DNA of 64,000 nucleotides, from NCBI GenBank assembly GCA_947561395.2, contig OX387192.1, forward strand, positions 2,480,001-2,544,000, given 5' to 3'. Below, in pieces: positions 5,146-60,913 of the stretch (positions within the stretch are counted from its first letter, which is position 1; each line of letters begins with the position of its first letter). The notes under the pieces are model-generated. The model did no database searches and had not been told where the DNA came from. It saw only the letters and a program-made list of their open reading frames with translations. Source of the stretch: Buxus sempervirens. Lineage: Eukaryota > Streptophyta > Magnoliopsida > Buxales > Buxaceae. Position numbers and translations under genes: made by a program.

Positions 5146-5191
<46 letters not shown>

Positions 5192-5796: not shown

Positions 5797-5840
<44 letters not shown>

Positions 5841-31566: not shown

Positions 31567-33840
31567 TGTGAGACATGGGAAAAAATCACCGGAGTGATCG
31601 TCCCTCCGTCAACACACGGGCTCAACGCAAAAATTGGGAGAGTCGCCACCATTCATGATTTTGGGGTGAGAATGGACACCAAAGATTCAAAAGTAAGCAA
31701 AAATAGCCAAAAGACAAATTCTAGGGTAAAAATAACCCTATTTGAAAATCAAATCCAGAGATGGGTAAGGGGATTAGATTATGAACGGGGGAAGGTGTTA
31801 GGCACCCCCATTCATCCACACGAAGTGGTTGCCAAGTGTATATTTATGCAAAAAACAAAGTAAGAAAGCTTGCTAAAAATCATGAGAAACCTTGAAAAAG
31901 GAACAATGTATGATATTTTCACATGAAGATCCAAATGGATTTTAGACCTTCTCTTATGTCAATATCACTTCTGGAGTATTTCAAAAGATGGAAATCAAAG
32001 TAGAGGTTGCATAAAACCAAGTTAAATCAAATCCGGAAAATTCGGTAAAAAGTATGCCATTTGCCTTAAAATCATTCAAATCCAATTCTGAATTGACCCA
32101 AACCAAATCCATTTGAAAGATTAGGGTAAATAAGAATCTCATGCAAAATTTCACTTCATTCCAATGAAAAATCTAGGAGTTATGCTCCTTTGAAGTTGCT
32201 GTTGGGGATTTTTAAAAGTAGTAAGTGGGCAACTTTGGAAAATTGTCTAGAAAAATCCACTACATAGAAATCCACGAAATTTGGTGTGATTGAAGTCTGT
32301 ATGGCCATCTTTCCAGAGAAACTAGCCTCATACAAAAATCCCTTCGGACGTGCCTTGGGTGGTCTCCCGAACAGGCCCCGAAGATCACAGATTTACCCAG
32401 AAAAATGCAAATGAGCAGTTCTGAGTAAATCGGCTACCAATAATTCAAATGGAATCCAAAAATTATGAAACCAACTGGATTTGAAAATAGACTCAAAAAG
32501 GAGTACTCAGAAATAAAAACCGCTCGAATCGGACTTAAAACGAACACATGGCGGCCCGTCGAAGTGACAAGTTCTGTACTTGGACCTGAACTGTCCACTT
32601 AATTTCGACAGAGAGGTGTCAAAAATCGGCTAGATAGAAATTCATGAAATTTGGTGGACATAAACTAGACAGCCTCACCTTTCCCATGGTTCTGGAATTG
32701 CCCCAAAATTCATCCGGATGATGAAGTTACGGACGTCCGAAGTAAGGGTACAGGTGCTGTCAAGCTAAGCCATTTTTTTGAGTAAAAACCAAATCCGAAA
32801 ATTGATAAAAATGAAATTCGTGCAAGATGAACACAAATACTTTAAAATCATCCGAAAAGCATTCCAGAATTGATTGAGGCCATTTATTTGAGATTTATCA
32901 CAATAAATGCAATAAACCCCAAATATGAGCCTATCCCGCCAAAATAGTGATATGTGTGCAAAAGTGAAAAAAACCTAGCAAGATCCATACACATGCATAT
33001 AGATTCAATAAAATAGGTTCTAGCATAGCCTAGGGTGCCGTTCCATTATCGTTTCCCTCTGTTCTCTTTAAGATAATCAAGGGTACTTTGAATATGGAAC
33101 GGTTTTCAATCAATCAAAAGCCTTACGCTACATGGGTTCTAGCACTAGGGTCAATCCCTAGTCTCGTTTCTCCTAGATCCGCCTTCACGTTTTACGGCTA
33201 GGGGAGTCTTGAGATACTTTGAGCCGGGGAAGGATTTCCACACATACAAACAAGGCTTTACACTACAGAAAGGTAGAAGAAGAGATCTAGATCTAGGAAT
33301 GTAAAGACAGAAAATAAAAAGAAAAGTTGAGGCTTACCTGAGTGCTGGAGGCGATTCCACAGCGGTTTTCTTCTTCTCTTGGAGTTCTTCTTTGCGAGAA
33401 TTCAAAACAAGAGTTGTGTCCCATTTACTCAAGGAGGAGGCTCCTATTTATAGGCAAGGGCTAAGGTCATTGGTAGACACAACTTAATGTCTAGAACCCC
33501 TCCAACCTAAACCCTAAGGTTATTTCCGCGATTTCCCCTCATTTAATGAGGGACATGATGGTAAAAGTGAAAAGCTCTCGGAAAACCCTAATTTTGAGCA
33601 AACTTAAGGTATCCGGTATATCAGGCCGGATAACAAAGGACTTTAAGGTATCCGGTAGATGGTACCGGATACATTAAGGCTCACATGTATCCGGATAATC
33701 ATTCCGGATACATGAAGGAGTACTTGTATCCGGATTGAGCATCCGGATATAGGTAAAAAATTATTTTCTTCAAATTCTGTGCTGGCTTTCCAGGAGATAA
33801 TGATTTTTGATGATTGTTTGTGCAATTTGGGGTGTCTACA
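31567..33840 (-). repeat. Element 1 3' LTR
   Basis: 2274 bp, in element orientation TGTAGACACC to CATGTCTCACA. It contains the TATCCGG motif cluster (33609-33757), TATA (33444-33453), a splice donor (33336/33337), and GAGTCGCCA (31640-31648, plus strand). Confidence 0.97.
33609..33757. promoter_or_regulatory. TATCCGG/CCGGATA cluster in the 3' LTR U3
   Basis: Four successive imperfect palindromes of the form TATCCGG-N8to12-CCGGATA in 150 bp, upstream of the TATA box in element orientation. The spacers differ between units while the 7-bp arms are kept. Confidence 0.85.
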
Positions 33841-33855
33841 ACTGCCCCTCTTTGC
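33841..33855 (-). other. Polypurine tract of element 1
   Basis: The minus strand reads GCAAAGAGGGGCAGT immediately before the 3' LTR start TGTAGACACC; it is the plus-strand primer for reverse transcription. The same purine tract sits at 55513 (element 2) and 25053 (element 3). Confidence 0.9.
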
Positions 33856-34431
33856 GGGAGCTGCGAAGCAGTGAGCTGCAAAGAGTAGACAAGCCCAAAT
33901 TGCATTCCCTTGAGCATGATTTGCTCGGTTTAATTCAATTTCTGTAGAAAACCATTTTTGAGTGGAGATTTGCCAAAAAGCCCTCACTTTAAGGGGGCAT
34001 CTCTCCAAGAGTTCTTAAATTCCACTGAGCCCTTTGTGGCTGTGAAGTGGATTTTAAGCCCAAAAATAGGATTTTTGAAAAACTGATTTTTTATCAAACC
34101 AAGTTGAAAATTGAGTGGATATCATCCTTTTGACCAGGCACATTTCCCAAAGTTGTCCTAAATTCCACAGAGCCCTCGTGGCTGTGAGGTGGATTTCAAG
34201 ACAAAAATAGGATTTTGAGAAAATAGAAGTTGTAGCACAAGTTTGCTTTTTCTTTTCTTTTCCTTTTTTCTTTTCTTTTTTTTCTTTTTCTTTTTTTTCT
34301 TTTTTTTTTTTTTCTTTCCTTTTTTTTTCTTTTCTTTTTCCTTTTCTTCTTTTTTCTATTTTTCCCTGTTTTTTTCCTCTATTTTTCTATTTTTTCTGCT
34401 TTTTTCTATTTTTTTTTCCTTTTTTTCTTTG
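33856..34431. other. Element 1 3' untranslated region with conserved hairpin blocks
   Basis: Holds TTAAGGGGGCATCTCTCC (near 33990) and two copies of the CCACTGAGCCC..GTGGCTGTGAAGTGG hairpin (34021-34057 and 34163-34200), also present singly in elements 2 and 3. From 34240 to 34431 it is a C/T-only low-complexity tract. Confidence 0.75.
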
Positions 34432-34530
34432 GTATCCGGTAAATGTATCCGGATAATAAAGGGCCTGCGGGTATCCGGCCTGAGTATCCGGATCCCGCAG
34501 GTTTACTTAAGTCGCGCGCGACCGCGACTT
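34432..34530 (+). promoter_or_regulatory. Putative gene A promoter: motif cluster and GC palindrome
   Basis: Two TATCCGG/CCGGATA-type pairs (34432-34495) followed by an imperfect palindrome AAGTCGCG..CGCGACTT (34509-34530). Element 2 has a cluster of its own motif and a GC-rich AAGCCCGCGACTGCGGCTT in the same place (55862-56000). No clear TATA box. Confidence 0.55.
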
Positions 34531-35714
34531 TTCATTTCTTCTCTTCCTTCTCCGATAACTCAGACCGGCTATCCTCCTCTTCTTCTTCACCCGACGGTTG
34601 CTCCCTTCTTCTCCGGCGATTCCCTGAGCTTCGGTGGCTCCTGTTGCTGCCGGCGAGAGTCTGCAACTCCGGCGACCTTCCTTGTTCGATCATTCAAAGC
34701 AGCAGTCGAGCCCTAGCTCGATTTTCTTTTGGATTTCTTGTCCATTCACCTGTTCTTCTCCAACTCGACTCAATCCGACCAGGTCAGTGAGCATCTTAGC
34801 ATGCATTCTTCTCATTTTAATTTGCTGTTTCAAACATTGGACGAGCATGTATGCTTTTTGTATTGATTCCTTTAGAAACCGAATGCTTGCTGTGTTATTG
34901 CCTTGGCTGTCAAGCCTTGATTCTGAATAGCTATGCCTTGGATTTCTTTTGATTGTGGTAAATTCCCAATTGCTTGAATTTCTGCCAATTCTGAATTGCT
35001 GCCAATTGCCTGAATTTCTGAATTTCTGCCAAGTTTGAGCTTGAATTTCTGAATTGATGCTTTAATGAATCCAATCTTGCCATTGCCTTGGTTGTTTTGG
35101 ACAAACCATGCTGGATTACAATGCTTCAAAATTTTTTGTGATGCCATGACTTTTATTTGCACTGATTGGGATTGCCTTTCCCACTGAATGGCATGATTTT
35201 GCATTTCCCATATAGCTTATTGATAGAATTTTCAGACTTCATGATATGTGATTCTTGACTTTCAATTACCACTTTTTGGAGCTGCCCATGTGACTGTTGC
35301 TTGTGCAATCCTTGACTTGATAGTGTCCAAAACTTAGGACTGCCTTGCTGCTACTTCTTGATATGCTGGGATTCTCAATCCGCCCGGTGTTAATGTTGTG
35401 CTCCAACTGCCAGGACCATTCTGTGGTTGGTTTTTGTACTCCTTAGTTTTATTCAGATCCTTGATTTAGCTCAGACCCTTTGCTTTTGCACAATTGTAGA
35501 AATCCTGTAGTAAATTATCAGTTAGTAGTCTTTGTGAAAAAAAATATAGAAATATTCTCTAAAGACTTTGAACCGAACCACAATTCCTGAGCATAAGATT
35601 CCTGATGAACTAGAGTTGAAATCTCTGATAAATTTGAACTAAATCCAGATTAAAAGCAAGGTAGGATTTTAGATAAATTTGTACTGAAATTCATAGGATA
35701 CTTCCCTGTTGTAG
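34531..35714 (+). other. Gene A leader: 5' UTR exon and intron
   Basis: 34531-34780 is pyrimidine-rich with repeated CTCCGGCGA-type words. A donor CCAG/GTCAGTGAG lies at about 34781, and an acceptor (TTCCCTGTTGTAG) ends at 35714, directly against the ATG. Element 2 has the same arrangement (donor near 56329, acceptor AACCGTAG ending at 57549), which supports a real leader intron. Confidence 0.6.
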
Positions 35715-38402
35715 ATGGCTAGGAGTCGTTCTCGGGTTAGAGAGGAGGTTGACCCAGCTGATCAGCCCTCCAGTTCGCGGGCTCGGACAGAGGCGAGCTC
35801 CAGTGCTACCTTGTCTGAGCCATTGGATGTCTCTCGAGAGAGCTCTGCTGAGGTAGACTTTCAAGAATTTTTCTTTCTTTTCTTTCTTCTATTCTCCTTT
35901 CCCACACAATCTTCACACTGCCCTTGGATTTTAGCCCGTGGTTGCACCAGCTCGGGGTCGAGGTAGAGGCAGAGGCAGAGTCCAGGATCAGGCCCCTGAG
36001 GGCGAGAGAGGCCGTGGTAGAGGCCGAGGCAGAGCCAGAGATATGGCTCCGGAGGGGGTTGCTGTAGCTTTGGCAGGGGTCTCTGAGGAGTTGAGGGCTT
36101 CTGTGCATGATACAGAGCTCCTCCATGGCTTGGATAGCCACCCCTCCATGTGCATCAGGGCCGATGTGCCGCTTCCCTACTACTCTTCCCACCTGCGCGG
36201 CAGCTGGGGGAGATTCAGCGAGTTGGCACGGTCACTTTCTCCGGCACTCAGGCGGGAGTTTGGGAGATGTCATCTGGATCACTTCCTCAGCATTCCATCG
36301 TTCAGAGCCGACCGTCCACTCATCTTTGCCATGATGGAGAGATACTTCCCAGAGACACAGTCGTTCCACCTGCCGGACGTGGAGCTGGGGATCCGCCCCT
36401 CCGATTTTGTGATGATTACTGGCATTCCTCTGACGGGGCGGACCATCGTCTTGGAGCGGCCCTCTGCGGAGGATATGGGCCTCCTTCTGGGGTATCAGGC
36501 CCTGCCACCTACTGCCTGGGATGGGAGGAGTGGCCGGCTCTCCATTAGCTGGCTGCGGGAGAGTCTGGCTCGACATTTCGAGAGGAGGCATGAGACCATC
36601 TCCGTGGAGGATGCAGCCTTTGTGCCTATCTTCCGGCACGTATTCCTGTTGATGCTTGGGAGCTGCTTTTTCCCGGAGGATACGACCGGCGTCAGCCCAC
36701 TTTTCCTGGATGCTTTGAGAGATCTCCATCAGACCCGCCAGCTAGCATGGGGTCGGCTCATTTATGGGACCATCTTGGCCGGGCTGTGCCGTGCAGTTCG
36801 AGGTCTGGCATCCCCGAGAGGCGATGGAGTTAGCAGCCGGTTCTTCTGGCAGATTCTGCAGGTATTGAATTCATCTGTCTGGCTTAATTCCTTAGGCTAT
36901 ATCTTTTCTTGACTGATTTTTCTTTTGCTAGGTGTTCATGTACACCTACATGACCTTCTTCCGACCCTCCCCGGTACCTGAGGTTGCGGATTTCCCTGTG
37001 GCCCTGCGATGGTCGGCCCAGGTTCGAGATGCCGATAGGAGCCAGCCTCGTACCGCTCGGGTGCACTTAGACCGTGCACGCCGATCTGATGTAAGTCCTC
37101 TATCTTTTTTTCTTTTATTTTCTTTCCTGTACCTTGACTGTATCTGACCACTTTGCTTCTTTGCAGCTCATTCTATCCCGTCCAGATGACGTGGATGTCG
37201 GAGTCGCCCGTGAGATGGCCGTACAGGATGCTTTCGAGAGAGATCTCCGACGTCAGCCCTACCAGTGCTTCCTTGGGAGGCTTGGTAGGGTGATGTACTT
37301 GGGAGAGCGCCTGTACTACCAGCACACTGGCGCACTTCGCATCCCCGTCCCTCCTCCTGCTGTAGGTCCCGACACACTCCTCCCGGGCTTTGATGTTGAT
37401 CAGTTCGATCACTTCTTGGATGCGGAGGGGCTTACAGTAGCTGGAGATTATGACGAGTGGTTCCAGCGGGTGTCTATTGGATGCTTGATGGATCGACCCA
37501 CTCGTGCTGGGGTGACAGAGATTGGCGGGATCCGCATCCGGATTCATGAGGACACAGTAAGTCTTGTACTTTTCATATCTTCATCTTTTCTTTCTTTATG
37601 TATTTCTTATCCTGCTTCTGTTCTTGCTGGCAGGTACACGAGCTGAATTCCATTCGGGACCGGTTCGAGAGCCAGCGGGCTGCGATCGATGATATGATCG
37701 CGGAGCACGATGCGGTCGTGGCCCAGCGGGATGCTCGGATCAGGGAGCTGGAGGCCCTAGTTGCTGAGCTCCAGTCTAGACAGGTATCTGGTCTTCTCAT
37801 ATGTTCATTTCTTTCATTATTTTCTGTTTCTGCTATTCTGATATGCTTGTTTGACTTGTGCAGGGCCCGGTCCATGATCAGGATGCCTTCTTTGAGCATG
37901 ATTTCCTGATTCCTGACCCATCTCCTGCTCGGGCCTCTGATCCCGAGGATGTCCCAGCTGCTGATCCTGACGAGCCGGATCCTCCTGCTCCTTCTGCAGA
38001 CATTCCTGGTATGATCTTCTTTTCATCCTCTTCTTTTATTCTTCCTTATATCTGAATCTTCTGATTTTTCTCTTTTCTGTGGACTCAGCTACTTCTGATC
38101 CTGGCCCCTCTGCTGCTGATGCTGGGCCTTCTGGAGCTACGGGAGCAGAGGATGCTTTGGATGAGGGCCCAGTTGGGCCGGTTGCTGCTGAGCCCGAGGC
38201 TTCTTCCCCAGATTCTACTCCTGCTCCTCCTCCAGATCTCGAGGATTATTGCTTGGAGTATCATCTTCAGCAGGTGGTAGGTCGGCATCCTCGCCATGCG
38301 GCCGAGCGGATTCTTGCATACTCTAGAGGCCGAGCCCTTTGGGGGAGACGCCGTAGAGGTGGACGTGGCCGAGGACTCGGGGATGATCCTGCACAGGAGT
38401 AG
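35715..38402 (+). CDS. Gene A: plant-mobile-domain protein, antisense gene of element 1
   Basis: Seven exons with GT-AG junctions keep one frame of 740 aa: 35715-35852, 35935-36861, 36932-37090, 37167-37556, 37634-37783, 37864-38008, 38089-38402. An N-terminal RG-rich, AT-hook-like tract (GRGRGRGR, twice) is followed by a plant mobile domain in exons 2-4 (HGLDSHP, YFPETQSFHLP..ELGIRPSDF.MITGIPLTG, LLMLGSCFFP, AWGRLIYGTILAGL, IGCLMDRP). Exon 5 is a coiled coil, then an acidic Pro/Ala region and a basic GRRRRGGRGRG end. No stop is found. It lies between pol and the 3' LTR on the opposite strand, so its introns survive reverse transcription. Element 2 carries the same gene. The domain is known from plants and transposons; a regulatory, DNA-binding role here is inference. 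Confidence 0.82.
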
Positions 38403-38855
38403 ATTAGGATTATATTTTTCATTTTCATGTATTTTTATCATCCCTGTACAAAAACTTTCAGATATATATGAAAAAAAACTTTTTATTCATTCTATTATGT
38501 CTTGCACATCTCCTGCTCTCAATTCTATGCAATTATGACTTGTAAGCAGGTAAAACAGGTAAAAATTCGGATTTTTTCATCCTTAGCCCTTTTTTTTGCA
38601 TTTTTTCTCGGTATCCGGTCTGACATACCGGTATGTTATACCGGATATTCATGGAATCCTTTGTATCCGGTATACTTATCCGGATATTACCAAAGCCTTT
38701 GTATCCGGTCTGAGTTACCGGATATGTTAAAAGATGCTATAAATGCAACCAGTCTCGGGATTTGGGCATTTTTTACGAGTTTTTGAGTTTAAAAAACCCC
38801 CTTTTTCGCCTTTTTCTTCCTCCTCTTGAGTTCTAGCTTGCTCCCGTCAAATCCA
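38403..38855 (+). promoter_or_regulatory. Gene B promoter: motif cluster plus TATA box
   Basis: 38611-38727 holds three TATCCGG..CCGGATA palindromes, and a TATA box (CTATAAAT, 38737-38744) follows 10 bp later, about 110 bp before the gene B ATG. Element 2 has its own motif cluster (60650-60780) and TATA (CTATATAAA, 60802-60810) at the same place. 38403-38610 is the gene A 3' end, with no other feature. Confidence 0.7.
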
Positions 38856-40513
38856 ATGGAATCTGGATCATCTTCTGCCCCACTATTGTCTGTCCATACT
38901 GCCTCCCCTGCAAAACAGCCTTTTAGATCAAAACCCCCAAATCTCACTAGGTACAACCCTGTGGATTCCTTTTACACCAGGTGGGTTAACTCTATGACTC
39001 TAGATGAGGAGAGGAGATGGGGTACTACCAATCTAGGTCATACCCTGCTCATTCCCAAGGTTCCCTTCAAGTGGGAGATTATAGAGGCCATGATTGGTCA
39101 TTGGGTTCCTGATCTCAACTTGTTCCGTTTTGGGACCCATGAGATGACCCCAACCATTGAAGAGGTGGAAATCATCCTGGGCCTGAGGTTTGATGAGAAG
39201 GTGGTGAATCCACCTCTTAGGCCCAGTTATAAGAAGGAAGCTTCTACTTTTTTGGGCATAGGGAAGAAGGACTTGGGGGATTCTGACACCCTTTTGACCC
39301 TATCTAAGGCTTTTTTGACTGAGAAGCTTTTGAGGGGAGAAGATAAGGAGGCCCGATTCAATGCCTTGACCTTGATTGTGGTCAACCAATTACTTTTCCC
39401 ACGGGAGGATGACGAGGTGGACTTGGCCTTGATTTCCGTGATATGCCAGGTCAGGGAGCGGGAGAGGTTGGCCCCTATGATTTTAGCTGGGATATATCAG
39501 GCCTTGACTGACTGCTACAACAGGAAGTCGAAACGCTTCTTAGCATGTGCCCAGATCCTGCAGGTAAACAAGTTTTTTTTTTTTTTTTTTTTTTTTTTTG
39601 TACAATGTGCTGACACCTCTCTCTTCCTTTGCAGCTTTGGCTACTTGATCATTTGAGCCAGATTGAAGAGATCAATCGACACTTCTTCCCGAGTCTGAAA
39701 GTCCCTTTGTTGATGAGCAACAGGGAGTGCCCCGATATTTCAGGGGGCAAACAGGGCTGGTTCACCTTCTTGGGCTCGCTTCAGGATGACCAGGTGAGAT
39801 GGCCTGGTACTTATCAACCCAATGCGGAGACAGTGATTAGCTTCCGTGACCGCAACTTTCTGATCCTAGCTGGCCTAAAGCATGCAGTGCTGTATCTTCC
39901 TCTGCGGGTCCTTCGTCAGTTCCGAGCGACCCAGGGGATTATCATCCCATGTGGATATGAGGATCGTCTTGGGCCTCTTTCTATGAAGCTGAATGCCTGG
40001 TTGATGAAGGAGTGGTCTTATGTCCGCTTTATGCATGGTCCAGTCTTCTCGGAAACCCATGTGAAGGATTATCTCTTCTGGATCAAGGAGCAGATACAGA
40101 CTCAGGCCCCAGTACCCGAAGATCCTCCTGTAGTCTTGGCTCCCACCTATGAGGACATTCTAGAGTCTGAGCGGGCTTCTCATAAGCGGCTTCAGCAGAT
40201 ATGGGTACGGGAGGCCCAGGAGCTCAGGATACAGGGCGCTTATCTGGAGAGGCAGCTTGATGAGCAGACCTCACGCCGTATTGCCGTGGAAGAGAAGCTG
40301 GAGGAGCAGAGGCAGGCCCGTCGCTTCGAGGTCCGTATGATCCGGCAGAAGTACCAGGATACTTTGGCCAGCCTTAGGAGTATGAGGATCCAGCAGGCCC
40401 TTTCAGATGAGGTCATTTCCTTCCTGAGTGATCCCACTGCAGAGGGGGCTTCAGGAGTCATTGCAGCTCAGGCAGCTCGGATTCGGGAGCTTGAGGAGCG
40501 GCTAGGATACTAG
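38856..40513 (+). CDS. Gene B: DUF7745-like protein, antisense gene of element 1
   Basis: Two exons, 38856-39563 and 39635-40513, join in frame to 528 aa across an intron made almost wholly of T. I take the ATG at 38856; upstream in-frame codons are TTG only. Residues about 40-110 (TRWVNSMTLDEE, EAMIGHWVPDLNLFRFG, MTPTIEEVEIILGLRF) and the later LPLRVLRQFRATQGIIIP match the DUF7745 family found across plant genomes. From about residue 400 it is a long coiled coil ending IRELEERL. No stop is found. It has its own TATA and motif cluster, follows gene A, and converges on pol. Function is unknown; the coiled coil suggests oligomerisation or a partner, possibly gene A, whose exon 5 is also coiled coil. 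The element 2 copy keeps the same intron site. Confidence 0.8.
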
Positions 40514-41467
40514 CTTTATTTCCTGCACATTTTTCATACCTTTGTACAAAATTGAACTCCAATAGTGGAAATACAAAGGTTTTAATTCAAAATAAAGTTT
40601 TTATATTATTGGCCTCAGAATGCTCAGATGCTTGTAAAAACAAAGGTTTTATGAAAAGTATTTGATTTCTCATCACTGGCCAAAGTATAATTTTTCCTTT
40701 TTATATTTTTTTTGTATATTTTTTTTTTTTTGAAATTTGGTCCATGCACTTAATCACCTATAATTAAAGGAATTAGAACCAGATTAAATAATGAAAAGGG
40801 TAGTTCACAAAATACTGAGGGATCAGAACCGTCCATCTTAGGACCTTTAGAGTCATTCCCAACTGCCAAAACTGCCCCATTCTGCTCATGCCAACTTTGC
40901 TTGAAGCTCGGATCCCCATGATCAACTCAACCTCTGATTTTCTTTCATTTTTCTTATTTTTTTTCTTTTTACCTTTTCGCCAATATTGCCCCTAGCGCCA
41001 GTTACGGTTTTCACTAGGGCCGGCTTCTGAATTCCGTCATCACCCATCTTACTCTGACATTTGAATGAACAAACTAAGATCACCGAGGGCTTAAAAATAG
41101 GACGAAATAAAGGCTAGGCTCAGTTTATGAAAGAACGGGTATTAAAGGCCCAAAATTTTTCAAGTGTGGAAATAGGTCAACCGGACTTACAGTCATGATG
41201 AATTTAACCCTTTTCCCCCAAATTGCATTTTTTGCATTTTCCTTTTTTTCACACTTGGCTTTCATTTGCCATTTCCATTGCTTTTCCTCTCTTTTTCTTT
41301 TTCTTTCCTTACTTTGCCCCAATTTGTTTTGCCCCTATTTAAGACTGTAAATCCGGTTTGGGTTTATCAAAGAAACGAACCGGCTCAACTTGGCTAGACT
41401 AGGGATTAGAATTTTTTTGAAGGAAATAAAGAAAAATGGCCTCGGATCATTTCCTAGAAATATTCAC
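40514..41467. other. Convergent spacer between gene B and pol
   Basis: Non-coding, but clearly homologous to 62722-63662 in element 2, including 'ttggcctcagaat.ctcagatgctt', 'tttgatttctcatcactggccaaagtata', 'attacggttttcactaggg' and 'aataggacgaaa.aaaggcta'. It must contain 3' UTR and polyadenylation signals for gene B. Confidence 0.6.
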
Positions 41468-41587
41468 TCAAGGAAAATACCTTTTTACCGCATCAGAGTT
41501 AATGGGCTCAGGAAAATCTGACCCATCCATTTCTGCTAAGATGAGTGCACCCCCTGACAGTACTTTCTTGACGACATATGGGCCTTC

Positions 41588-48768: not shown

Positions 48769-48839
48769 TGTTCTTGCTTTGGATCTGGTCACGGGAGCAA
48801 TGATTGCCAATAAGTGTAAATGTACCTGGGTTGAATGTA

Positions 48840-48862
48840 CCTGAGGAAAAAATGAATAAAAC
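48840..48862 (-). promoter_or_regulatory. Predicted splice acceptor before gag
   Basis: The minus strand reads a pyrimidine tract TTTTTTCCTCAG ending at 48841, then exon sequence from 48840 with no ATG until the gag start at 48768. It pairs with the LTR donor at 53567 to define a 4.7-kb leader intron. Confidence 0.6.
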
Positions 48863-48949
48863 ATGTTAGCTTCCATTTATCTTGAGTCACACCCCTATAC
48901 ATGTAAACCAGTAGGTTAGGTGAACACCAATCCAGATATTTTTTTTTGT

Positions 48950-49853: not shown

Positions 49854-50131
49854 TTTTTTCTTCTTCAAATTTGCTGAATTTTCTCAGTTTTCAAGTTCCA
49901 GAGTTTGACTGACCCATGTTTGAGTTGAGTTGGTGTCAAAAAATATGACACCTTGGTTTCCTCTTTGATTTTCAAACTTAGGTTAAATCCTGAAAGAATA
50001 TTTTATTTTATTCTTTTTTTTTGTTTTTCTTTCTGTATGCTCTTTTCGGGGTGCCTAAGGATTATCCACAGTGTTTTAGGCATTTTATTCTGAAAATTTG
50101 GGCTGAAAAGCCAATTTGTGCAATTTTTGAA

Positions 50132-50279
50132 TGTATCCGGTATAACATTCCGGATAATAATATGCCTTAATGTATCCGGTTACCATAACCGGATTCACGC
50201 ATATGCCTTTTTATCCGGAAATATATACCGGATATGAGCAGGGTTGTTATTAACCGGCCTGAGTTGCCGGTTATTGCCG
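50132..50279. promoter_or_regulatory. TATCCGG/CCGGATA cluster in the element 1 leader
   Basis: Four degenerate palindromes (TATCCGG..CCGGATA, TATCCGGTT..AACCGGAT, TATCCGG..CCGGATA, TAACCGG..CCGGTTA). Same core as the LTR and gene A/B clusters. It sits inside the leader intron, upstream of gag. Confidence 0.85.
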
Positions 50280-51776
50280 AAATGGCCCTTTTTGACTCAT
50301 TTTTTTCCCCAGATTTGATTTTTTTTCATTCCCAATTGATGTTCACCTTAATTTGACCTTCAAAACTTGCCCCAAATTGGGCTTGGACATCATACTTGCA
50401 AAATTCCCCAAATTTTAAGAAAAGGACATGGCTTTACCTTGCCACCTTGTATTACCTTCATTCAATATGGTATTCACATTATACCTTGGCCTGTAAAACA
50501 TGCAAACGGCCTTCCCACATTTACACCCAATTCCCCAAACGCAATTGTGTGCTTTTAGCTGAAAACGTGTTTCTCCACCTTCAAGCGTATGGTTTTTGGG
50601 TTTTGGCTTAATTGGCAACTTAGAACTCAAGTCTAGTGATGCCCGGAATCGAATCACAGATCCCATTGTCATCACATCATTGACCCAAATTCTAAGGTAA
50701 ATGTTTTCACTTTCGCTTTCCGAAGTCACGACCTCGGTGCGCCAAGCTACACACATTCATGGTTCAACTTCCTAATAGGTAAAGGGTAGGCTGTGCAAAT
50801 TGTTTCAAGTGCTCAAGTGCAATTTTAAAATTGTGGTAACATTCATAACGTCCCAGCCCCTTGCCACTCTTTTTCGTAGCCATGCATTCAATTTCAAGCC
50901 AAGGTACAAATGACAAAGATAATGAAGCTAAATACAAGCAAGCAAGCTCCAAAACAACTAAACATGCACAAAAAATATTACATGCCCAAAAAGTGTTATA
51001 CAAAACATGTTATTTGCACAAACAACAATTAAATCATGTAAACATGCTTGAAACCCAAAAGCATTCCTAAAATTCCATATTTTCATGCTCTTTTTCATGC
51101 TCAAAGTGTACCATTTACCCCAAATTGAAGCCTAAAATTTTAGCACTTACTTGGCATGGTTCAAAAGTGTTTCAATGAGGTAAAACATGCTTGAAATCCC
51201 CCAAATATACACTGAAATTTCCAGAATTTTCATGCTCAAAAGTGCTTCCCTTATATCCCAAATTAATGCCTAAAAGTTTAGCAACTACTTGACATGGTAT
51301 ATTGGTGAACATACTAAAAAAAATCTACAATGTGCACTAAAATTCCAGATTTCATGCTCTTGGTTTTCATGCTCAAATCAAATCCCCCTATACCCCAAAT
51401 CAAAGGCATAGCATAACAAAAAATTTTTAAGCACAAAAAGCATGCTTTATGAGAATCATGTTTGAATACCCCAAAAATTCTGAACTCCTAGATTTCATAC
51501 TTCTAATTCTCATGTTCAAACCATGGTACTCAAAATCCAAATTAGAGCATGTTATCACCAAATGCATCAAAATCATGCTTCAAGATAGGCTTCTCCTAAA
51601 TCAATCTCTAGGCAACATCAATCAAAACATACATGACTTGATCCATATAACATTCAAAAGCATCTCAATCTGATTTGAAATACAAGAATATACACAAATA
51701 AAGTAAACAAAATAGCAAGCATTCAAAAAGTAAAGAAAAAGCATGAACATACAAAAAAAAGGCTTAAATCCACAAG
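50280..51776 (-). other. Element 1 leader, no gene recognised
   Basis: Between the primer binding site and the motif cluster. A 113-codon minus-strand frame at 50415-50756 has no recognisable domain. From 50900 to 51720 short phrases such as 'catgcttgaaa.cc.aaa' and 'ccccaaat.ga.gcctaaaa.tttagca' recur at about 110-140-bp spacing, an old decayed tandem array. Confidence 0.5.
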
Positions 51777-51794
51777 TCCCCAGCAGAGTCGCCA
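51777..51794 (-). other. Primer binding site, tRNA-Arg
   Basis: The minus strand reads TGGCGACTCTGCTGGGGA, complementary to the 3' end of a plant tRNA-Arg including CCA, two bases inside the 5' LTR. Ogre-type elements use this primer. It lies inside the predicted leader intron, so spliced transcripts would lack it. Confidence 0.88.
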
Positions 51795-51869
51795 GTTGTG
51801 AGACATGGGAAAAAATCACCGGAGTGATCGTCCCTCCGTCAACACACGGGCTCAACGCAAAAATTGGGA

Positions 51870-51878
51870 GAGTCGCCA
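51870..51878 (-). promoter_or_regulatory. PBS-like sequence in U5
   Basis: The minus strand reads TGGCGACTC, the first nine bases of the primer binding site, 76 nt upstream of it. The same word sits near the 3' end of every LTR in the window (31640, 31252, 19022, 22098 and 10880; one mismatch at 18645). Confidence 0.7.
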
Positions 51879-53565
51879 CCATTCATGATTTTGGGGTGAG
51901 AATGGACACCAAAGATTCAAAAGTAAGCAAAAATAGCCAAAAGACAAATTCTAGGGTAAAAATAACCCTATTTGAAAATCAAATCCAGAGATGGGTAAGG
52001 GGATTAGATTATGAACGGGGGAAGGTGTTAGGCACCCCCATTCATCCACACGAAGTGGTTGCCAAGTGTATATTTATGCAAAAAACAAAGTAAGAAAGCT
52101 TGCTAAAAATCATGAGAAACCTTGAAAAAGGAACAATGTATGATATTTTCACATGAAGATCCAAATGGATTTTAGACCTTCTCTTATGTCAATATCACTT
52201 CTGGAGTATTTCAAAAGATGGAAATCAAAGTAGAGGTTGCATAAAACCAAGTTAAATCAAATCCGGAAAATTCGGTAAAAAGTATGCCATTTGCCTTAAA
52301 ATCATTCAAATCCAATTCTGAATTGACCCAAACCAAATCCATTTGAAAGATTAGGGTAAATAAGAATCTCATGCAAAATTTCACTTCATTCCAATGAAAA
52401 ATCTAGGAGTTATGCTCCTTTGAAGTTGCTGTTGGGGATTTTTAAAAGTAGTAAGTGGGCAACTTTGGAAAATTGTCTAGAAAAATCCACTACATAGAAA
52501 TCCACGAAATTTGGTGTGATTGAAGTCTGTATGGCCATCTTTCCAGAGAAACTAGCCTCATACAAAAATCCCTTCGGACGTGCCTTGGGTGGTCTCCCGA
52601 ACAGGCCCCGAAGATCACAGATTTACCCAGAAAAATGCAAATGAGCAGTTCTGAGTAAATCGGCTACCAATAATTCAAATGGAATCCAAAAATTATGAAA
52701 CCAACTGGATTTGAAAATAGACTCAAAAAGGAGTACTCAGAAATAAAAACCGCTCGAATCGGACTTAAAACGAACACATGGCGGCCCGTCGAAGTGACAA
52801 GTTCTGTACTTGGACCTGAACTGTCCACTTAATTTCGACAGAGAGGTGTCAAAAATCGGCTAGATAGAAATTCATGAAATTTGGTGGACATAAACTAGAC
52901 AGCCTCACCTTTCCCATGGTTCTGGAATCGCCCCAAAATTCATCCGGATGATGAAGTTACGGACGTCCGAAGTAAGGGTACAGGTGCTGTCAAGCTAAGC
53001 CATTTTTTTGAGTAAAAACCAAATCCGAAAATTGATAAAAATGAAATTCGTGCAAGATGAACACAAATACTTTAAAATCATCCGAAAAGCATTCCAGAAT
53101 TGATTGAGGCCATTTATTTGAGATTTATCACAATAAATGCAATAAACCCCAAATATGAGCCTATCCCGCCAAAATAGTGATATGTGTGCAAAAGTGAAAA
53201 AAACCTAGCAAGATCCATACACATGCATATAGATTCAATAAAATAGGTTCTAGCATAGCCTAGGGTGCCGTTCCATTATCGTTTCCCTCTGTTCTCTTTA
53301 AGATAATCAAGGGTACTTTGAATATGGAACGGTTTTCAATCAATCAAAAGCCTTACGCTACATGGGTTCTAGCACTAGGGTCAATCCCTAGTCTCGTTTC
53401 TCCTAGATCCGCCTTCACGTTTTACGGCTAGGGGAGTCTTGAGATACTTTGAGCCGGGGAAGGATTTCCACACATACAAACAAGGCTTTACACTACAGAA
53501 AGGTAGAAGAAGAGATCTAGATCTAGGAATGTAAAGACAGAAAATAAAAAGAAAAGTTGAGGCTT

Positions 53566-53571
53566 ACCTGA
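53566..53571 (-). promoter_or_regulatory. Splice donor in the LTR R region
   Basis: The minus strand reads CTCAG/GTAAGCC with the junction at 53568/53567, about 110 nt after TATA. The same CAG/GTAAG lies at matching places in the LTRs of element 2 (54988/54987), solo LTR C (21033/21034), solo LTR B (about 22573) and element 3 (about 24497). Confidence 0.7.
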
Positions 53572-53673
53572 GTGCTGGAGGCGATTCCACAGCGGTTTTC
53601 TTCTTCTCTTGGAGTTCTTCTTTGCGAGAATTCAAAACAAGAGTTGTGTCCCATTTACTCAAGGAGGAGGCTC

Positions 53674-53683
53674 CTATTTATAG
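53674..53683 (-). promoter_or_regulatory. TATA box of the element 1 5' LTR
   Basis: CTATAAATAG on the minus strand within GCCTATAAATAGGAGCC. The other LTRs have a TATA box at the same place. It predicts transcription start near 53645. Confidence 0.8.
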
Positions 53684-53838
53684 GCAAGGGCTAAGGTCAT
53701 TGGTAGACACAACTTAATGTCTAGAACCCCTCCAACCTAAACCCTAAGGTTATTTCCGCGATTTCCCCTCATTTAATGAGGGACATGATGGTAAAAGTGA
53801 AAAGCTCTCGGAAAACCCTAATTTTGAGCAAACTTAAG

Positions 53839-53987
53839 GTATCCGGTATATCAGGCCGGATAACAAAGGACTTTAAGGTATCCGGTAGATGGTACCGGAT
53901 ACATTAAGGCTCACATGTATCCGGATAATCATTCCGGATACATGAAGGAGTACTTGTATCCGGATTGAGCATCCGGATATAGGTAAA
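53839..53987. promoter_or_regulatory. TATCCGG/CCGGATA cluster in the 5' LTR U3
   Basis: Same four palindromes as in the 3' LTR, placed about 160-310 bp upstream of TATA, where enhancer or activator sites would be expected. Confidence 0.85.
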
Positions 53988-54075
53988 AAATTATTTTCTT
54001 CAAATTCTGTGCTGGCTTTCCAGGAGATAATGATTTTTGATGATTGTTTGTGCAATTTGGGGTGTCTACACCATT

Positions 54076-55512
54076 CCTAGGGTTTCATGATCAAAACAAA
54101 ATTGAGATAAAATCAAATAAAATCAATTTAAAGTGAAAAATCCAAAAATCTGGCTTCAAGTCAAAATTCTAGAAATCTGGAAAAATATGATTTTTATAAA
54201 ATATTTCAAAATTTAACTTGAACAGTCCAGGACATAGATAAAGCTCAAATTTCACATTAAATCAGAAAATAAAAACCAAAATACCCACATTGATGAAAAA
54301 CACCAAAAGGGGAGAATTTAGACCGTAGGGTCTTCTCTCAATAATGAAAAACGATTTAAAAACCATATCATGAAACCCTAGAATTTACTTTCAGGCTTCT
54401 GGATTCAAATCTATCATATTGATCATGATAAATCCAAGATCCTAGCCTAAAACCACAAAAATCACGAAAACAGTGCTGTAGGTGCAAATATGTGGAAAAT
54501 CCAAATTTTATCAAAAAGTGGGGATCTCATGCTATAAACATCATAGATTCATGTGATTCATTCAGATTCATCATAAAAACAATTAAACATGATCAGGATA
54601 TTCAAAATAGCCACATTTCACAGATTTGAGCACATGGGAGTCTACCCTACGGATCCACCTGTTCTCTTTTCCCCTAGTTCTCTCTTCACGTTTTACGGCT
54701 AGAGAGACTCTTGAGGTACTTAGAGATAGGTTTGGGTATACAAACACAATCACAGGCCTTATTCTATGAAAAAAAGAAAAAAAAAGATATGGGGTTCTAT
54801 TCTAGGGATCCACCTGTTCCCCTTTCCCCTAGTTCTCTCTTTACGTTTTACGGCTAGAGAGACTCTTGAGGTACTTAGAGACAAGTTTAGGAATACGAAA
54901 ACAGATATGGCCTTATTCTACAGCAATAGAGATGATCCTATTACTTCTAGAATTGAAGACAGAAATAAAAAGGGATAGGGGACTTACCTGGATTGAGCAG
55001 GCAAGCAGCAGGAGTTCTTCTCTTCTCTTGGAGCTTCTTAGAATTCCTTGGACTTCAAATTTTCGTGGCCTTTTGCTTGAGGAAAGACCTTCTATTTATA
55101 TGCAAACACAGGGGTATGGTTGGTCCAAGGTTTGGCAAGATAGAGTTTCAGTTTGAGTTAAACACAAGATCATGCCAATCCTTTATCCACAAGGATAAAT
55201 GAGATAATTCGAACAGATGAATAAGAGAATTCGCTTATCCAAGAGAGATATTTGGGTGCAGATAAGGCTCAAAAATCAAAAAGGTAAAATTCGCACAAAG
55301 ACCCCGTGCCCGTATATATATTACGGTCGCGCCCTGCCCGTATTATTAATACGGGCACGCCGTGACCGTATATCAACTGCAGGTATGACCAGTCCGTAAA
55401 CAAAATACGGTCATGACCAGTTTGGCCAGATTTTACACTTTTTTTACTTGTTTCAAATCCCAATTAATGTTTTCATTATTTTCTCATTTTAGTGCAATTT
55501 GGGGTGTCTACC
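54076..55512 (-). repeat. Element 2 3' LTR, inner part
   Basis: Continues from 31566. It holds an internal tandem duplication of about 140 bp (54640-54775 and 54785-54922) that includes the CGTTTTACGGCTAGAGAGA block, a splice donor at 54987, TATA near 55092-55100 (TATAAATAGA), and an ACGGGC/ACGGTC motif cluster at 55305-55420. The terminal base pair has decayed (TCTACC instead of TCTACA). Confidence 0.9.
55305..55420. promoter_or_regulatory. Element 2 motif cluster in the LTR
   Basis: Repeated half-sites ACGGGC, ACGGTC and their complements GCCCGT and GACCGT in palindromic pairs (for example CCCGTATTATTAATACGGGC). It occupies the same U3 place as the TATCCGG cluster of element 1. Confidence 0.8.
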
Positions 55513-55861
55513 GCTGCCCCCTCTTTGCTGGTAATTGGAACCAATTACAAGCAAAGAGCAAAAAAGACCCACCAATTGCACTTTTTGAGATCTTTGTTTA
55601 ACAAATTGCATTTTGCAAGGATTAAATGGATGATTTTGGAAAAAAAGAATTCATTGTGGAAGATTTGCTAAAAGTCCCTCAGCTTAAGGGGCAAATCCTC
55701 CTCTCTCCTCTAACTGAGCACTCATGGCTATGAAGTGAGATTTGAGACAAAATTTTTAAACAAAAGTGGGTAAGGTGGTAATCCTTGCAACTTACAACTA
55801 ATACAAACATTAATCTTTTAAAAAATGTGGAGAAAATGATAAAATACGCAATTTTTGGCTT
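55513..55861 (-). other. Element 2 polypurine tract and 3' conserved block
   Basis: Purine tract on the minus strand at 55513-55528, then the block shared with elements 1 and 3, including TTAAGGGGCAAATCCTCC (near 55685) and the ACTGAGCACTCATGGCTATGAAGTGA hairpin (55711-55750). Confidence 0.8.
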
Positions 55862-57549
55862 CGCCCGTATTTGGCTTACGGACCAATGCTAACCGTAGAT
55901 TATTGACGGGCGGACGGGACCGTATTGCCTTCGCGGTCGTCTGAAGCCATACTGAGTTTACGGATTTTATGATCTTCTTAAGCCCGCGACTGCGGCTTTT
56001 TTCATTTCTGCTCATATTCCAAGCCCTAACTTCTTGCGATCGTAGTTTTCTCTGCGGTCTTCCTTCTTCTTCTTTCAATCCCCGACGAACACTGTTCTTC
56101 TCCGGCGAGCTTCTCATTTTTCCGGCGATTCTCACTGTTCTCCGGCAACTCTCTTGCGCGACCACTGCTCTCCATTAATTTCGGCGCCTGTTCCCATTGC
56201 CGCGACTGTGATCAAGTCTTTGGCGTGCTTCACCCTTCCTCAATCAACTGTGGACACTCCTTGAAGTTTCGGTAGTGTAAGAACTCCTCATTTGATTGCC
56301 GATTTTCCTCTATCTCGACTGAATCCAGTAAGTGGCCGCAATCCCCAACCATTTTGCAATTTGAGCTGCTGATTATTCTCTACCATGTTCATTGTATTCC
56401 ATGCTCATTGCTTGCTCTTGATTGATATGAATTCCTCATGAATTGCTAGTTTATATTGAATCCATGCCCAATTTTTTCATCCTCAGTTTATGCTAAACAG
56501 TGATATATCCAGACGAATTTGGTTCAGGCACTAGCCTCTTGAGTGACCGAAATTCTCCTTATTTCTCAATTTCTTGTTATTTTGCTCTTGACTTCTGTTT
56601 CCACACTTAAGTAACAATTTCTGTTTCCACACTTAAGTAACCATCTGAATCATGCTGAGATTTCCTACCTGTATTGAGAATCCCATTGCTGGTATTACTA
56701 TGCTTTGCACAATTTCTCAATCCTTGACATTTTTGCTCTTGATAGAACCACATGCTTGCTTTGTCAAGTCTTCAAATTTTGTCTAATTCTTGATTGATTT
56801 TCTGCAATTTTATTCTTGAGCTGAATGAATGCTTGCTTGCTAATCTGAAGACTTGTTACTTGCATTGATGCTTTGGTACCAATCAACACTTTTATATAAA
56901 TCTCTTAATTTCTATGTTTTGATTTGGCGATTTTCCTTGATTTATTTAATCTCCCTTAATCTTCTGCTTCTTTAGCTTGATAATCAGCATAAACCACTTG
57001 ACTTTGAATGGTGCTTTTAAAAACCAGATACTTAAATGTCACTCTACTGATCTTGAACATTTAGCTTGAAATGATCACTCTTGAACTGACTTATGGTTTC
57101 TCCATGAATCTTCAGATTTTCACTTGAATAAGCTTAGATTTGTAAGCTTTAAACTTTGATTCCAGCCATTTTAACATGCTCTGAAGGCCCTGAAAGTAAT
57201 CAAGATACTACAATTAGGGATTATAAGATTTTAACCCTTAATACACCCTTTTTCTCTTTTTTTTTTCAGTCATATAAAAAGAATATACAAGTAGCCTTAA
57301 CTCCTTGTATATAATTTTTTTATATGTTTTCTTAATTGAAACAAAGACAATAAAAAGATGCAATAATTTTCTCAAGATATCTTTGAAGAAAGAAACTCCT
57401 TTAGTTGACTTTTGATTTGATTGAGAGCTCTTTCCCTCATTCTTCATTTTCCTTTTCCCTACAAACCAATTAAACATTGTTAGAATGAAAATTAAGCAAT
57501 CAAAGTTTTTAACAAGAATAATTAACTAACTCCCTAGTTTGAACCGTAG
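55862..57549 (+). promoter_or_regulatory. Element 2 gene A promoter and leader
   Basis: 55862-55968 is an ACGGGC/ACGGTC-type cluster; 55980-56000 a GC-rich palindrome-like word; 56010-56330 a pyrimidine-rich 5' UTR with CTCCGGCGA words. A leader intron (donor CCA/GTAAGTGG near 56329, acceptor ending at 57549) abuts the ATG. The rest of the intron is AT-rich without other features. Confidence 0.55.
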
Positions 57550-60430
57550 ATGGCCCGTCTTCGATCAGCTTCCCGGGATCCTGCAGATGAGCCTTCCTCT
57601 TCGAGGGTTAGGCGTGATCCTGCTGATGTGGCCTCGTCTTCGAGGGCCGAGAGGGATTCGGATTCTGATATCCCAGATCTCCCTTCTGGGGATTCGCGTG
57701 AGGCGACCCCAGAGGTATACTCTAATCTTTCTGAAATTTCATATCCTTTCCCAAAATACATCTTCCTGATTCTTTCCTCCCTTTAATTATTTTCTTTTAG
57801 CCGGCTGTTGAGGCTTCTGGCAGAGATAGGAGCCGTAGCAGGCGCAGAGCTGGAGGCAGAGATGGAGGCCATGATGAGGGCCATAGAGGAGGCCACAGAG
57901 GGGGCCGTGGCAGAGATGAGGCTAGGACCAGGGTTGAGATCCCTGAGGAGGTGGTTGCCCAGATTAGGGATACCGACCTTTTGCATGGCTTGAGGACTCA
58001 TCCCTCAGCGTGTATTAGGGCGGATATCCCTTTGGAGTATCCTATGTCCCACTATAGAGGGAGCTGGGCCAGCTTCACTAGATTTTTGGGAGCCTGCAGT
58101 TCAGCCTACCGCCGGGAGCTAGGCTTATATGGCTTCGGCCTGTTTATCACCATTCCGGACGTTCGCTTGGATCGAGCCCTCATTGCTGCACTGCTCGAGA
58201 GATTCTTCCCGGAGACTTTGTGCTTCCACTTCCCAGATATTGAGATTGGGATCCGGCCTTCTGATTTCACGCTCATCACCGGGATTAGGATGATCGGTGA
58301 TGTTATTCTTGAGATGGCGATGCCAGAGGCTGATGAGGTTGTAGCTTATCTTGGATATATCGTGCTGCCTCCAGAGGCCTGGGATCGGGGGAGAGCGAGA
58401 TTGTCTCTGACATGGTTGAGAGAGACCTTCAGGAGGAGGCAGTTTGGCCAGCTTGCTGCCGGTGATCATGTTTTCCCATTCGCCTTCCGGTTTCTTTTTT
58501 TGTATATGATGGGATCTTGTTTCTTCCCAGAGGACACGACTTCAGTTAGTCCTCATTTCCTGAGCTTACTGGGAGATCTTCAGCGGGCGAGGAGGTATGC
58601 ATGGGGCCCGCTTATTTTTGGCACTATATTGGCCGGCCTTCGCCGATCAGTGAGCGGCCTCTCTACTTCCAGAGGGGCTGGAGTTGGGTGCAGATTTTTC
58701 TAGCCTTTTCTGCAGGTGACATGTCTATTTCTCTTCTCTTTCTTTCTCTTTCTCTTTTTCTTACCTCTCCTTTTCTATTCCTCTAACTCTTTTCTTCTTT
58801 TTGCAGTTTTTTGCTAGGGTTTATATACCCTATTTCCGTCCTACCTCTACGATGTCTGAGGAGACATATCCCATGGCACGTAGATGGTGTCATGTAGAGC
58901 ACGACTCTGAAAAGAGTTGTCCCAGGTCCGCCCGGGCCCACTTGGACAGGTTGTACCGGTCTGAGGTAATCTTCTTTAATTTCTCTACTTTCTTCTTTTC
59001 TTTTCTTCCTGAATCACATATTTGATGTCCTGTTCTGTTTGTCAGCTATTTGTCCCCAGGATGGAGGACATTCATGAGGTGCTGGCCCTGCAGGCAGCCA
59101 GAGATGATGCATTTGTCCCTGACCAGAGACGACAGAGATACCAGTTCTTTATTGGTCAGCTGGGCAGCATCTGGTACTGCGGCGAGCGCTTCTTCTTTCA
59201 GCATGTGGGAGAGCCGCGGATTCCTGCCATCCCGCCAGATACTACTCCTTCCTACCCTCCTATGCCTGTTGATCCTGCCCAGTTCCTAGATTGGACTGAG
59301 GCAGAGACATTATTGGAGGAGGGTGACTATGATGCCTGGTTCAGGCGAGCTTCTGTTGGGTGCCTCATGCCACCTATGCCTGTCCGTGGCGGAGTCACTG
59401 AGATTGGAGGGGTAGTGATTAGGGCCTATGACACTACGGTATGCCTTCTTCCTTTTTACCTTTTCATTTCATCTGACCTTAGCATTTTTCTGACTTCTTT
59501 CTTTTCTATTTTCAGGAGGCTCAATTGGCAGAGATCCGGTCTCGATATGCTGATCTGGAGCGCCAGCGAGATGCTGCGATCGCCGAGTGGGATGCCCTCT
59601 ATATCACCATTTCAGACCTCCAGGGGCAGCTAGCCATAGCACAGGGCCAGGAAGGTCCATCTGATGCACAAGACCAGGCGGGTCCATCTTATACTCAGGT
59701 TAATTTCTTCTTTTATTTCCATTCCTGCTCTTGCATTTGTTTGTCTTGTTCTGACTGAAATTCCTTTTCTTAGTTTCAGGAGGACACAGCCGGCCCTTCT
59801 TCACCTGCTTCAGCCGTGCCCATGCATTTTCGAGATGAGGTATTTTCTGTGGCACGGGTGGAGTTCGTGATGTCTCCCAGTCCAGTAGAGGTTCCTGCAG
59901 CAGAGCCCAAGGTCGAGGCTGATATTGTACCTGCTGCTGAGGATGTGCCAGAGTCTGCCCCAGTAGCTGAGACTGCTCCTGCTGCATCTGCTGATGTAGA
60001 TATGGATTCGGCTATGGACGCCGCTGTGGTAGAGCCTACCGTGGAGACTGTGGTGATGGAGGAGGCTACAGCTGATCCTGTAGAGCCTGGTCCTGATGCT
60101 GATGTACCTGGGACCTCCGCTCCTGCTGGTCCTGCTATGGAGGATGCCGAGGAGACGCATGCTGCTGTTGATACGTCAGCGGATTCTTCCCGTACTGATT
60201 CTAATCCTGAGTCTACGGGATATGTAGATACTTCAGGGTACGTTCCTCCTGATCATCCCACTGCTGGCCTTGTGCCTTTATATATGTGGCATGATATTCA
60301 GTCTGTTTTGAGCAGGATGACTCGTAGCACAGCCCGCAATGTTGTGCGGCATGTCTTTGAGCGCAGGCGATCTTCAGGCCGTGGTCGAGGCAGAGGACGA
60401 GGCCGTGGCCGTAGGGGTGGACCTGCATAG
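57550..60430 (+). pseudogene. Gene A of element 2: plant-mobile-domain protein with one nonsense codon
   Basis: Six in-phase exons, 57550-57714, 57801-58715, 58807-58965, 59046-59438, 59516-59698 and 59780-60430, with GT-AG borders. Exons 1-5 match gene A of element 1 in position; exon 3 is 159 bp in both. The last intron of element 1 is absent here. The mobile domain is clear (HGLRTHP, FFPETLCFHFPDIEIGIRPSDF, LYMMGSCFFPED, IGCLMPPMP -like). RG-rich stretches again flank it (GRDGGHDEGHRGGHRGGRG at the start, GRGRGRGRGRR at the end). A TAG at 58701-58703, where element 1 has Trp, would stop translation at the end of exon 2. Otherwise the frame is open for 822 codons, so the break is recent. 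Confidence 0.8.
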
Positions 60431-60913
60431 ACAGTAGATTAGGATTCCTTTATGTACTTTGTATTTTTGACAAAAGTGATGTAAACATTCTCATATATAT
60501 AAAAGAAATTTAATTTTCATTCATTTGTGCTCATTCCTTCTTTCTTTTCAGTTTTTATTACATCATGAATGTTAAAGCAGGGACAGGTGAAGCTTAGGGA
60601 AACAAGGAAATTAAAAATTCTCATTTTTTTTTGCATTTTTTTCGAAGGAACCGTATTTAATCTACGAGTAAGCCGTGCCCATAAAGTTACTACGGGCGCA
60701 CTTTGCCCATAAAGTTTTCACGGTCAGGGGTGTCCATAGTTCCTATACGGGCGAGCTTTGCCCGTAGTATAATTACGGATTTTACTGCCTTACGATTTTT
60801 TCTATATAAACTCATAGGGAATGTCATTGTGACACTTTTACTAGTTGGAAAACTCCCTGAGCACGTCTTTTCTCGCTTTCCTTGGCTTCTTTGGCGCTTC
60901 CATTGCTTCCCCT
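60431..60913 (+). promoter_or_regulatory. Element 2 gene B promoter
   Basis: 60650-60780 carries repeated ACGGGC, ACGGTC, GCCCGT and similar half-sites. TATA (CTATATAAA) is at 60802-60810 and the gene B ATG about 104 bp later. Element 1 has the same layout with its own motif. Confidence 0.7.

Follow-up and report, generated by a model that had tools for sequence, protein, structure and literature searches.

What do dense arrays of short palindromic motifs do at several putative promoters of one plant retrotransposon, when its relatives carry other motifs at the same places? We address this question in a 64,000-nucleotide stretch of Buxus sempervirens DNA (contig OX387192.1, positions 2,480,001 to 2,544,000; here referred to as the window), which holds many Ty3 elements. 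At its centre is element 1, a complete Ogre-type retrotransposon with two antisense genes, A and B, whose predicted proteins contain the PMD domain. A preliminary description had proposed that such motif clusters are the traces of a self-encoded factor co-evolving with its sites. In our reading, to which we give a probability of roughly 60%, each Ogre-type element has its own recognition system, composed of cis-acting arrays and its own PMD factor, and the two diverge together.

Element 1 is flanked on both sides by the target-site duplication (TSD) CCATT, its two long terminal repeats (LTRs) are 99.9% identical, and the frames of gag, the G-patch open reading frame (ORF), pol, A and B are all open. 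It sits inserted in the 3′ LTR of a relative, element 2, and a related copy in inverted orientation, at 21.8 kb, shows its insertion site uninterrupted. The order in pol is reverse transcriptase, RNase H (pol residues 439–569), RVT_3 (624–742) and rve (909–1006). The second RNase H thus precedes the integrase, as is described for Ogre and Retand elements, and a PMD is given for 57% of Ogre elements (PMC6317226). Genes A and B lie between pol and the 3′ LTR, antisense to gag-pol. Because they carry the PMD (PF10536), we place element 1 on the Ogre side of the Ogre/Retand division; the TRP28 domain (PF04195) is absent from the Pfam matches of the A and B pieces. The gag leader also contains about ten 71-bp tandem repeats (48975–49852).

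The window contains 47 copies of the heptamer TATCCGG, as compared with a mean of 3.6 and a maximum of 9 over 100 shuffles, and 46 of these copies are within arrays. Element 1 has 35 (both LTRs counted), distributed over five sites as the preliminary description had claimed (Table 1). The arrangement of the half-sites is rigid. When up to two mismatches are permitted, 24 TATCCGG-N-CCGGATA pairs have a 9-base spacer, and every other spacer from 0 to 25 gives at most two; 23 of the 24, a number that includes both LTR copies, are inside arrays, and the other is at 40339. Of the 118 centre distances of up to 150 bp among all TATCCGG arrays, 110 are multiples of 13. Every third slot of this lattice is mostly vacant, which results in a 39-bp period. 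The remaining eight distances each fall 1 bp below a multiple of 13, which the loss of one base in the gene B array would yield. Random placement in five arrays never neared the observed 96 of 104, with a maximum of 21 in 20,000 trials. Moreover, a motif-free scan of the window returned nine clusters, each of them one such array, and none in five Markov-simulated windows; it misses the weaker arrays of element 2 genes A and B, of an element-1-like LTR referred to as E4, and the second array of a solo LTR. The same lattice gave no match across viral contigs. Prokaryote genomes gave two loci, one of which we take to be a chance match and the other a simple repeat that lacks the 39-bp geometry. 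For the gag leader array, neither a coding explanation nor a coding gene behind it was found. The orientation of the CCTGAGTTG unit in this array and in the second solo LTR array suggests promoters opposing gag-pol and the LTR's own sense, respectively.

We then compared the relatives. The arrays of element 2 contain 11 copies of TACGG(G/T)C and no TATCCGG, and the LTR array of element 3 has only TGCGG(A/T)C among the four motifs counted, while those of element 1 contain no motif of element 2 or 3. An inverted LTR of the element 2 family at 20.6 kb (the sister LTR) agrees with element 2. The motif sets are therefore mutually exclusive, with counts of 35, 11, 6 and 6 in element 1, element 2, the sister LTR and element 3; outside arrays, the window has four TACGG(G/T)C and three TGCGG(A/T)C. 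Alternating half-sites in element 2, the sister LTR and element 3 follow a 14-bp lattice apart from some 1-bp slips, and GACCGTA-N-TACGGTC pairs with up to three mismatches number 16 at a 7-base spacer and at most three at any other. All six half-sites listed for E4 end in A, and all eight of element 3 have G as their second base. All the clusters previously listed in elements 1, 2 and 3 were found in place, and the motif set of each element is uniform. The claim of conserved positions with differing motifs holds for three promoters, those of the LTR, gene A and gene B; the window edge cuts element 2 within pol and leaves its leader outside. The exact lattices, and the arrays in the sister LTR, E4 and the solo LTR, go beyond that description. 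As to element 3, tblastn (E up to 1) detected no remnant of A or B in the window, but only its LTR and about 240 bp of internal sequence align to element 2, which makes this absence uninformative.

A further hexamer, CTGAGT, is present exactly once in each of six arrays (9824, 22869, 34480, 38710, 50259 and 55952) and 38 times in the window as a whole. Within the arrays of gene A, gene B and E4, its place is the unit closest to the core promoter, and it is kept in the element 2 gene A array although the motif there has changed. It is possibly a second factor site common to the arrays.

Uniform motifs could also result from recent copying, if neutral tandem duplication had built the arrays. Some units do have common spacers (solo LTR U3, E4, element 3), and since spacers recur there, duplication can account for part of the uniformity of E4 and element 3. 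As a general explanation we disfavour it and consider it scarcely credible. In the 26 slots predicted by the 39-bp period in element 1 and the solo LTR U3, 178 of 182 letters match (one half-site per array served as anchor, and array extents were set by hand), yet spacers are near random between element-1 loci, with 36% identity, and linkers are 29% identical. Because the spacers differ while the slot letters agree, recent copying fails to explain the uniformity. Between the solo LTR and element 1, spacers and linkers are 27% and 28% identical. These values derive from 19 units, seven of them from the solo LTR; the units of E4 and the copies in the 5′ LTR did not enter them, nor did the gene B unit whose arms stand 22 bases apart (38612) or the match at 40339, which is due to chance. 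The arm identity of 95% is not used as evidence, as units were selected with at most two mismatches in 14 arm letters. In the element 2 family, half-sites (selected by match) are 73–88% and spacers 23–32% identical.

At the level of whole LTRs, the array is 45–54% identical in the alignment of element 1 and E4, and the next four bins are 72–79% identical. Between element 2 and the sister LTR, the array is 58–73% identical, the stretch just downstream 78% and then 43–49%, and the R region 98–100%; as the downstream stretch is mixed too, the whole U3 varies here and not the array alone. CpG observed/expected ratios are 1.1–1.8 in the arrays, 0–0.34 in the other LTR stretches measured and 0.64 in the whole element-1 LTR. 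Judged from composition, this level is consistent with selected or unmethylated sites in CpG-poor LTRs.

Inverted half-sites may act as nucleic-acid hairpins rather than as protein sites, and as RNA six of the eight arrays tested fold far better than shuffles (z −3.8 to −10.0). Two units have matching changes in both arms, and 11 of 19 units have complementary bases at the two ends of the spacer, compared with 6.5 expected. However, the gene A arrays show no such folding (z −1.3 and −1.7), and three units (9854, 34472 and 50173) are changed in one arm with no match in the other. A hairpin does not require the 13-bp register between adjacent palindromes, and the half-sites of the 14-bp lattice are each equidistant from both neighbours. 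We regard this explanation as very improbable.

If proteins bind the arrays, the products of genes A and B are the nearest candidates. Their gene models are splice consensus predictions. All four proteins of elements 1 and 2 exceed the PF10536 gathering score of 34.9 bits (Table 1). In both A and B the PMD is followed by a stretch that by eye resembles a coiled coil, and both ends of the A protein are RG-rich. Between elements 1 and 2, protein identity is 46.5% for A, 78.6% for B and 94.4% for the last 71 integrase residues (aligned codons), with nonsynonymous divergence (dN) of 0.51, 0.135 and 0.024, respectively. Gene A is thus the most diverged of the three genes comparable between the two elements, and it is under constraint (pN 0.37, pS 0.75); because dS is saturated, a fast rate and gene exchange are indistinguishable. 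Database searches, which scored only the candidates sharing most words (7,993 and 7,998), found one relative of A (P0001, from Euphorbia, 27% identical) and two of B, and then 62 rows (query included) from P0002, of which every named row is from Solanaceae.

The predicted fold of a gene-B-family (PMD/DUF7745) protein appears to resemble that of the DNA-bound domain of VANC21, which fits the parallel previously drawn with VANDAL elements and their VANC proteins. Sequence searches found no link between the PMD and VANC21; two weak matches in them, a piggyBat transposase (E 0.26) and a scaffold protein (E 1.1), were taken as chance. The AlphaFold model of P0001 has a pLDDT of 48.9, and the fact that VANC21 is unlisted in its fold searches is uninformative at that quality. 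A viral fold library gave no credible match. DUF1985 and DUF287, by which Pfam marks VANC proteins, were absent from the Pfam matches of the A and B ORF pieces (E up to 0.1, and up to 5 for some pieces).

Elements commonly use host factors, and the main rival to our reading is that host transcription factors bind the arrays, one per element family, and that families have switched factors. This appears unlikely to us, though clearly less so than the other alternatives. A fixed factor should hold one motif in close relatives, but at a shared promoter position related LTRs show the uniform half-site variants TATCCGG, TATCCGA, TACGG(G/T)C and TGCGG(A/T)C, and every switch would require all arrays of an element to acquire the new motif. 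The six arrays with one CTGAGT each, which resembles a second shared factor site, are in its favour, and so is the solo LTR, which has the motif and spacing of element 1 and no blastn match to it of at least 120 bp at E 1e-10.

The same solo LTR heads the points that weigh against a recognition system for each element. Because it carries TATCCGG with the element-1 geometry, this motif is not private to element 1 in the window. In addition, the 9-base spacer CCTGAGTTG is identical in the element 1 leader array, E4 and the solo LTR; among 22 spacers, at least three exact between-locus matches arose in 0 of 2,000 shuffles. Either these arrays are of common ancestry or the solo-LTR family uses the same factor. 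The solo LTR, by its nature, gives no view of genes A and B in its parent. Such sharing has a precedent in VANDAL elements, where the VANC6 motif is also found in the unrelated AT9TSD1 (Hosaka et al., PMC5735166). Finally, the window has one element pair with genes A and B, and the co-variation of A/B with the motif is for this reason a single contrast and not a phylogenetic test. The proposal of element-specific motifs hence stands among elements 1, 2 and 3, with no cross-occurrence, and gives way at the solo LTR. The proposal of a self-encoded co-evolving factor is partly supported by the uniform differing sets, the divergence of gene A and a predicted fold that may be VANC21-like, and loses its strict privacy.

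PMD proteins act in host gene silencing (PMC5418596, PMC7156037), and a host protein of the MAIN/MAIL1 kind may instead recognize the arrays, which would make them targets of silencing or make the protein a co-opted activator. The PMD would be the domain in common, and the genes dependent on MAIN/MAIL1, which act on silencing, share a promoter motif named 'DOWN' (PMC7156037). Motif drift is as much a problem here as with any fixed host factor, and an element should lose a silencing target rather than retain it as arrays at several promoters; we consider this improbable.

An element-encoded PMD factor could work as follows. In the cis part, half-sites with a CGG/CCG core stand in inverted orientation on a rigid 13- or 14-bp lattice, and the sequence shows arrays of them upstream of the putative promoters of the LTR, gene A and gene B. 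At least one of the two antisense PMD proteins, more probably A than B, would use the PMD fold to bind these arrays at the fixed 13/14-bp pitch, as a dimer or oligomer. Binding would activate or un-silence the LTR and antisense promoters, including those of the factor's own genes, and so form a positive loop. Factor and sites would drift together and leave each lineage its own motif set, with which the data are consistent. Two PMD clades were placed in Gypsy elements by Ikeda et al., who speculated on an anti-silencing role for the PMD proteins that MULEs have captured (PMC5418596); the arrays supply candidate sites for such a function.

The closest known system is VANDAL/VANC of Arabidopsis DNA transposons. 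In both cases the element encodes an extra protein, which in VANDALs is more variable than the transposase, and clustered short motifs in non-coding regions differ between related families (PMC5735166). Unlike VANDALs, the present element is an LTR retrotransposon, it has two antisense PMD genes that gave none of the VANC domain matches, and its inverted half-sites lie on a strict lattice at promoters. Element 1 resembles the Ogre elements with PMD in extra ORFs in its length, these ORFs and the second RNase H before the integrase (PMC6317226). Retand elements also have antisense ORFs between pol and the 3′ LTR, proposed to be DNA-binding and regulatory; these encode TRP28 (PF04195) rather than PMD, and the available part of that account describes no promoter motif arrays (PMC11963269). 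Among the open-licence papers that our literature searches listed, we found no report of element-specific promoter arrays in such elements. Functional parallels are Tas of foamy viruses, an element protein acting at the LTR and an internal promoter, and TnpA of Spm, which acts on arrayed motifs with demethylation. To our knowledge, both are unrelated to PMD proteins. TnpA is mentioned in PMC10398659.

Table 1. Features of the window (positions counted from its first letter).
Feature	Position	Strand	Details
Element 1, complete Ogre-type (Ty3, Tat clade) LTR retrotransposon	31567..54070	-	22.5 kb; LTRs, TSD, pol domain order
Element 1 3′ LTR	31567..33840	-	begins TGTAGACACC, terminates CTCACA
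Element 1 3′ LTR U3 array	33605..33755	.	9 TATCCGG half-sites, 4 units of 39 bp
Element 1 gene A upstream array	34428..34500	.	5 TATCCGG
Element 1 gene A (PMD)	35715..38402	+	740 aa, antisense to gag-pol; PF10536 53.6 bits (cut-off 34.9); 7 predicted exons: 35715-35852, 35935-36861, 36932-37090, 37167-37556, 37634-37783, 37864-38008, 38089-38402
Element 1 gene B upstream array	38606..38730	.	7 TATCCGG; upstream also of TATA-like TATAAATG at 38738
Element 1 gene B (DUF7745 + PMD)	38856..40513	+	528 aa, antisense; PF24924 63.4 bits, PF10536 54.5 bits; 2 predicted exons: 38856-39563, 39635-40513
Element 1 pol (reverse transcriptase, RNase H, second RNase H, integrase)	41588..45055	-	Pfam domain matches
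Element 1 ORF with G-patch	45055..47040	-	PF01585
Element 1 gag	47041..48876	-	PF03732
Element 1 gag leader array	50128..50275	.	5 TATCCGG and symmetric variant TAACCGG-N9-CCGGTTA
Element 1 5′ LTR	51797..54070	-	ACTGGCGACTCTGCTGGGG comes next
Element 1 5′ LTR U3 array	53835..53985	.	9 TATCCGG; copy of 3′ LTR array
Element 2 LTR array	55303..55420	.	6 TACGG(G/T)C, 14-bp lattice
Element 2 gene A array	55858..55970	.	2 TACGG(G/T)C
Element 2 gene A (PMD)	57550..60430	+	PF10536 63.8 bits; one in-frame stop
Element 2 gene B array	60644..60785	.	3 TACGG(G/T)C
Element 2 gene B (DUF7745/PMD)	60914..62720	+	PF10536 48.0 bits; one in-frame stop, end approximate
Sister LTR array (inverted, element 2 family)	20610..20725	.	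6 TACGG(G/T)C, 8 slots
E4 (element-1-like LTR) array	22855..22990	.	half-site TGTATCCGA, 39-bp period, partly decayed
Element 3 LTR array	24840..24955	.	6 TGCGG(A/T)C, 14-bp lattice
Solo LTR within hAT transposase ORF	7412..10925	+	TSD GAATG
Solo LTR U3 array	8134..8381	.	10 TATCCGG, N9 and 39-bp geometry as in element 1; directly upstream of TATAAAAG (8392)
Second solo LTR array	9813..9878	.	GATCCGG-N9-CCGGATC and one further unit

The gene split by the 3.5 kb solo LTR is of hAT transposase type (6799–13783, with DUF659 and hAT dimerisation domains), and after excision of the LTR in silico its frame is open for about 25 codons across the joined flanks. Upstream of its TATCCGG array, the solo LTR U3 contains 148-bp tandem repeats (7525–7888). 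Around the hAT region are two direct copies of one sequence (1–915 and 16233–17249), about 87–90% identical and 16.3 kb apart. A strongly AT-rich stretch, self-similar in both orientations (3584–5850), adjoins a UDP-glycosyltransferase fragment (1483–2199).

For plant Ty3 retrotransposons in general, we consider it about an even bet that their PMD is a sequence-specific DNA binder of the VANC fold superfamily, and that each lineage has a private self-recognition code, with its own PMD factor and a site lattice at the LTR as well as at internal antisense promoters. The PMD is the commonest of 15 unusual domains surveyed in plant LTR retrotransposons (PMC9289625), and if it binds arrayed motifs, these would provide a direct assay for a domain without a known function. 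If the general claim is true, the elements would have a reason to keep their antisense genes, and element-specific anti-silencing or self-activation would have arisen in retrotransposons and not in DNA transposons alone. MAIN and MAIL1, which act in host silencing, would in that case be related to this DNA-binding domain, and their recognition target would become directly testable.
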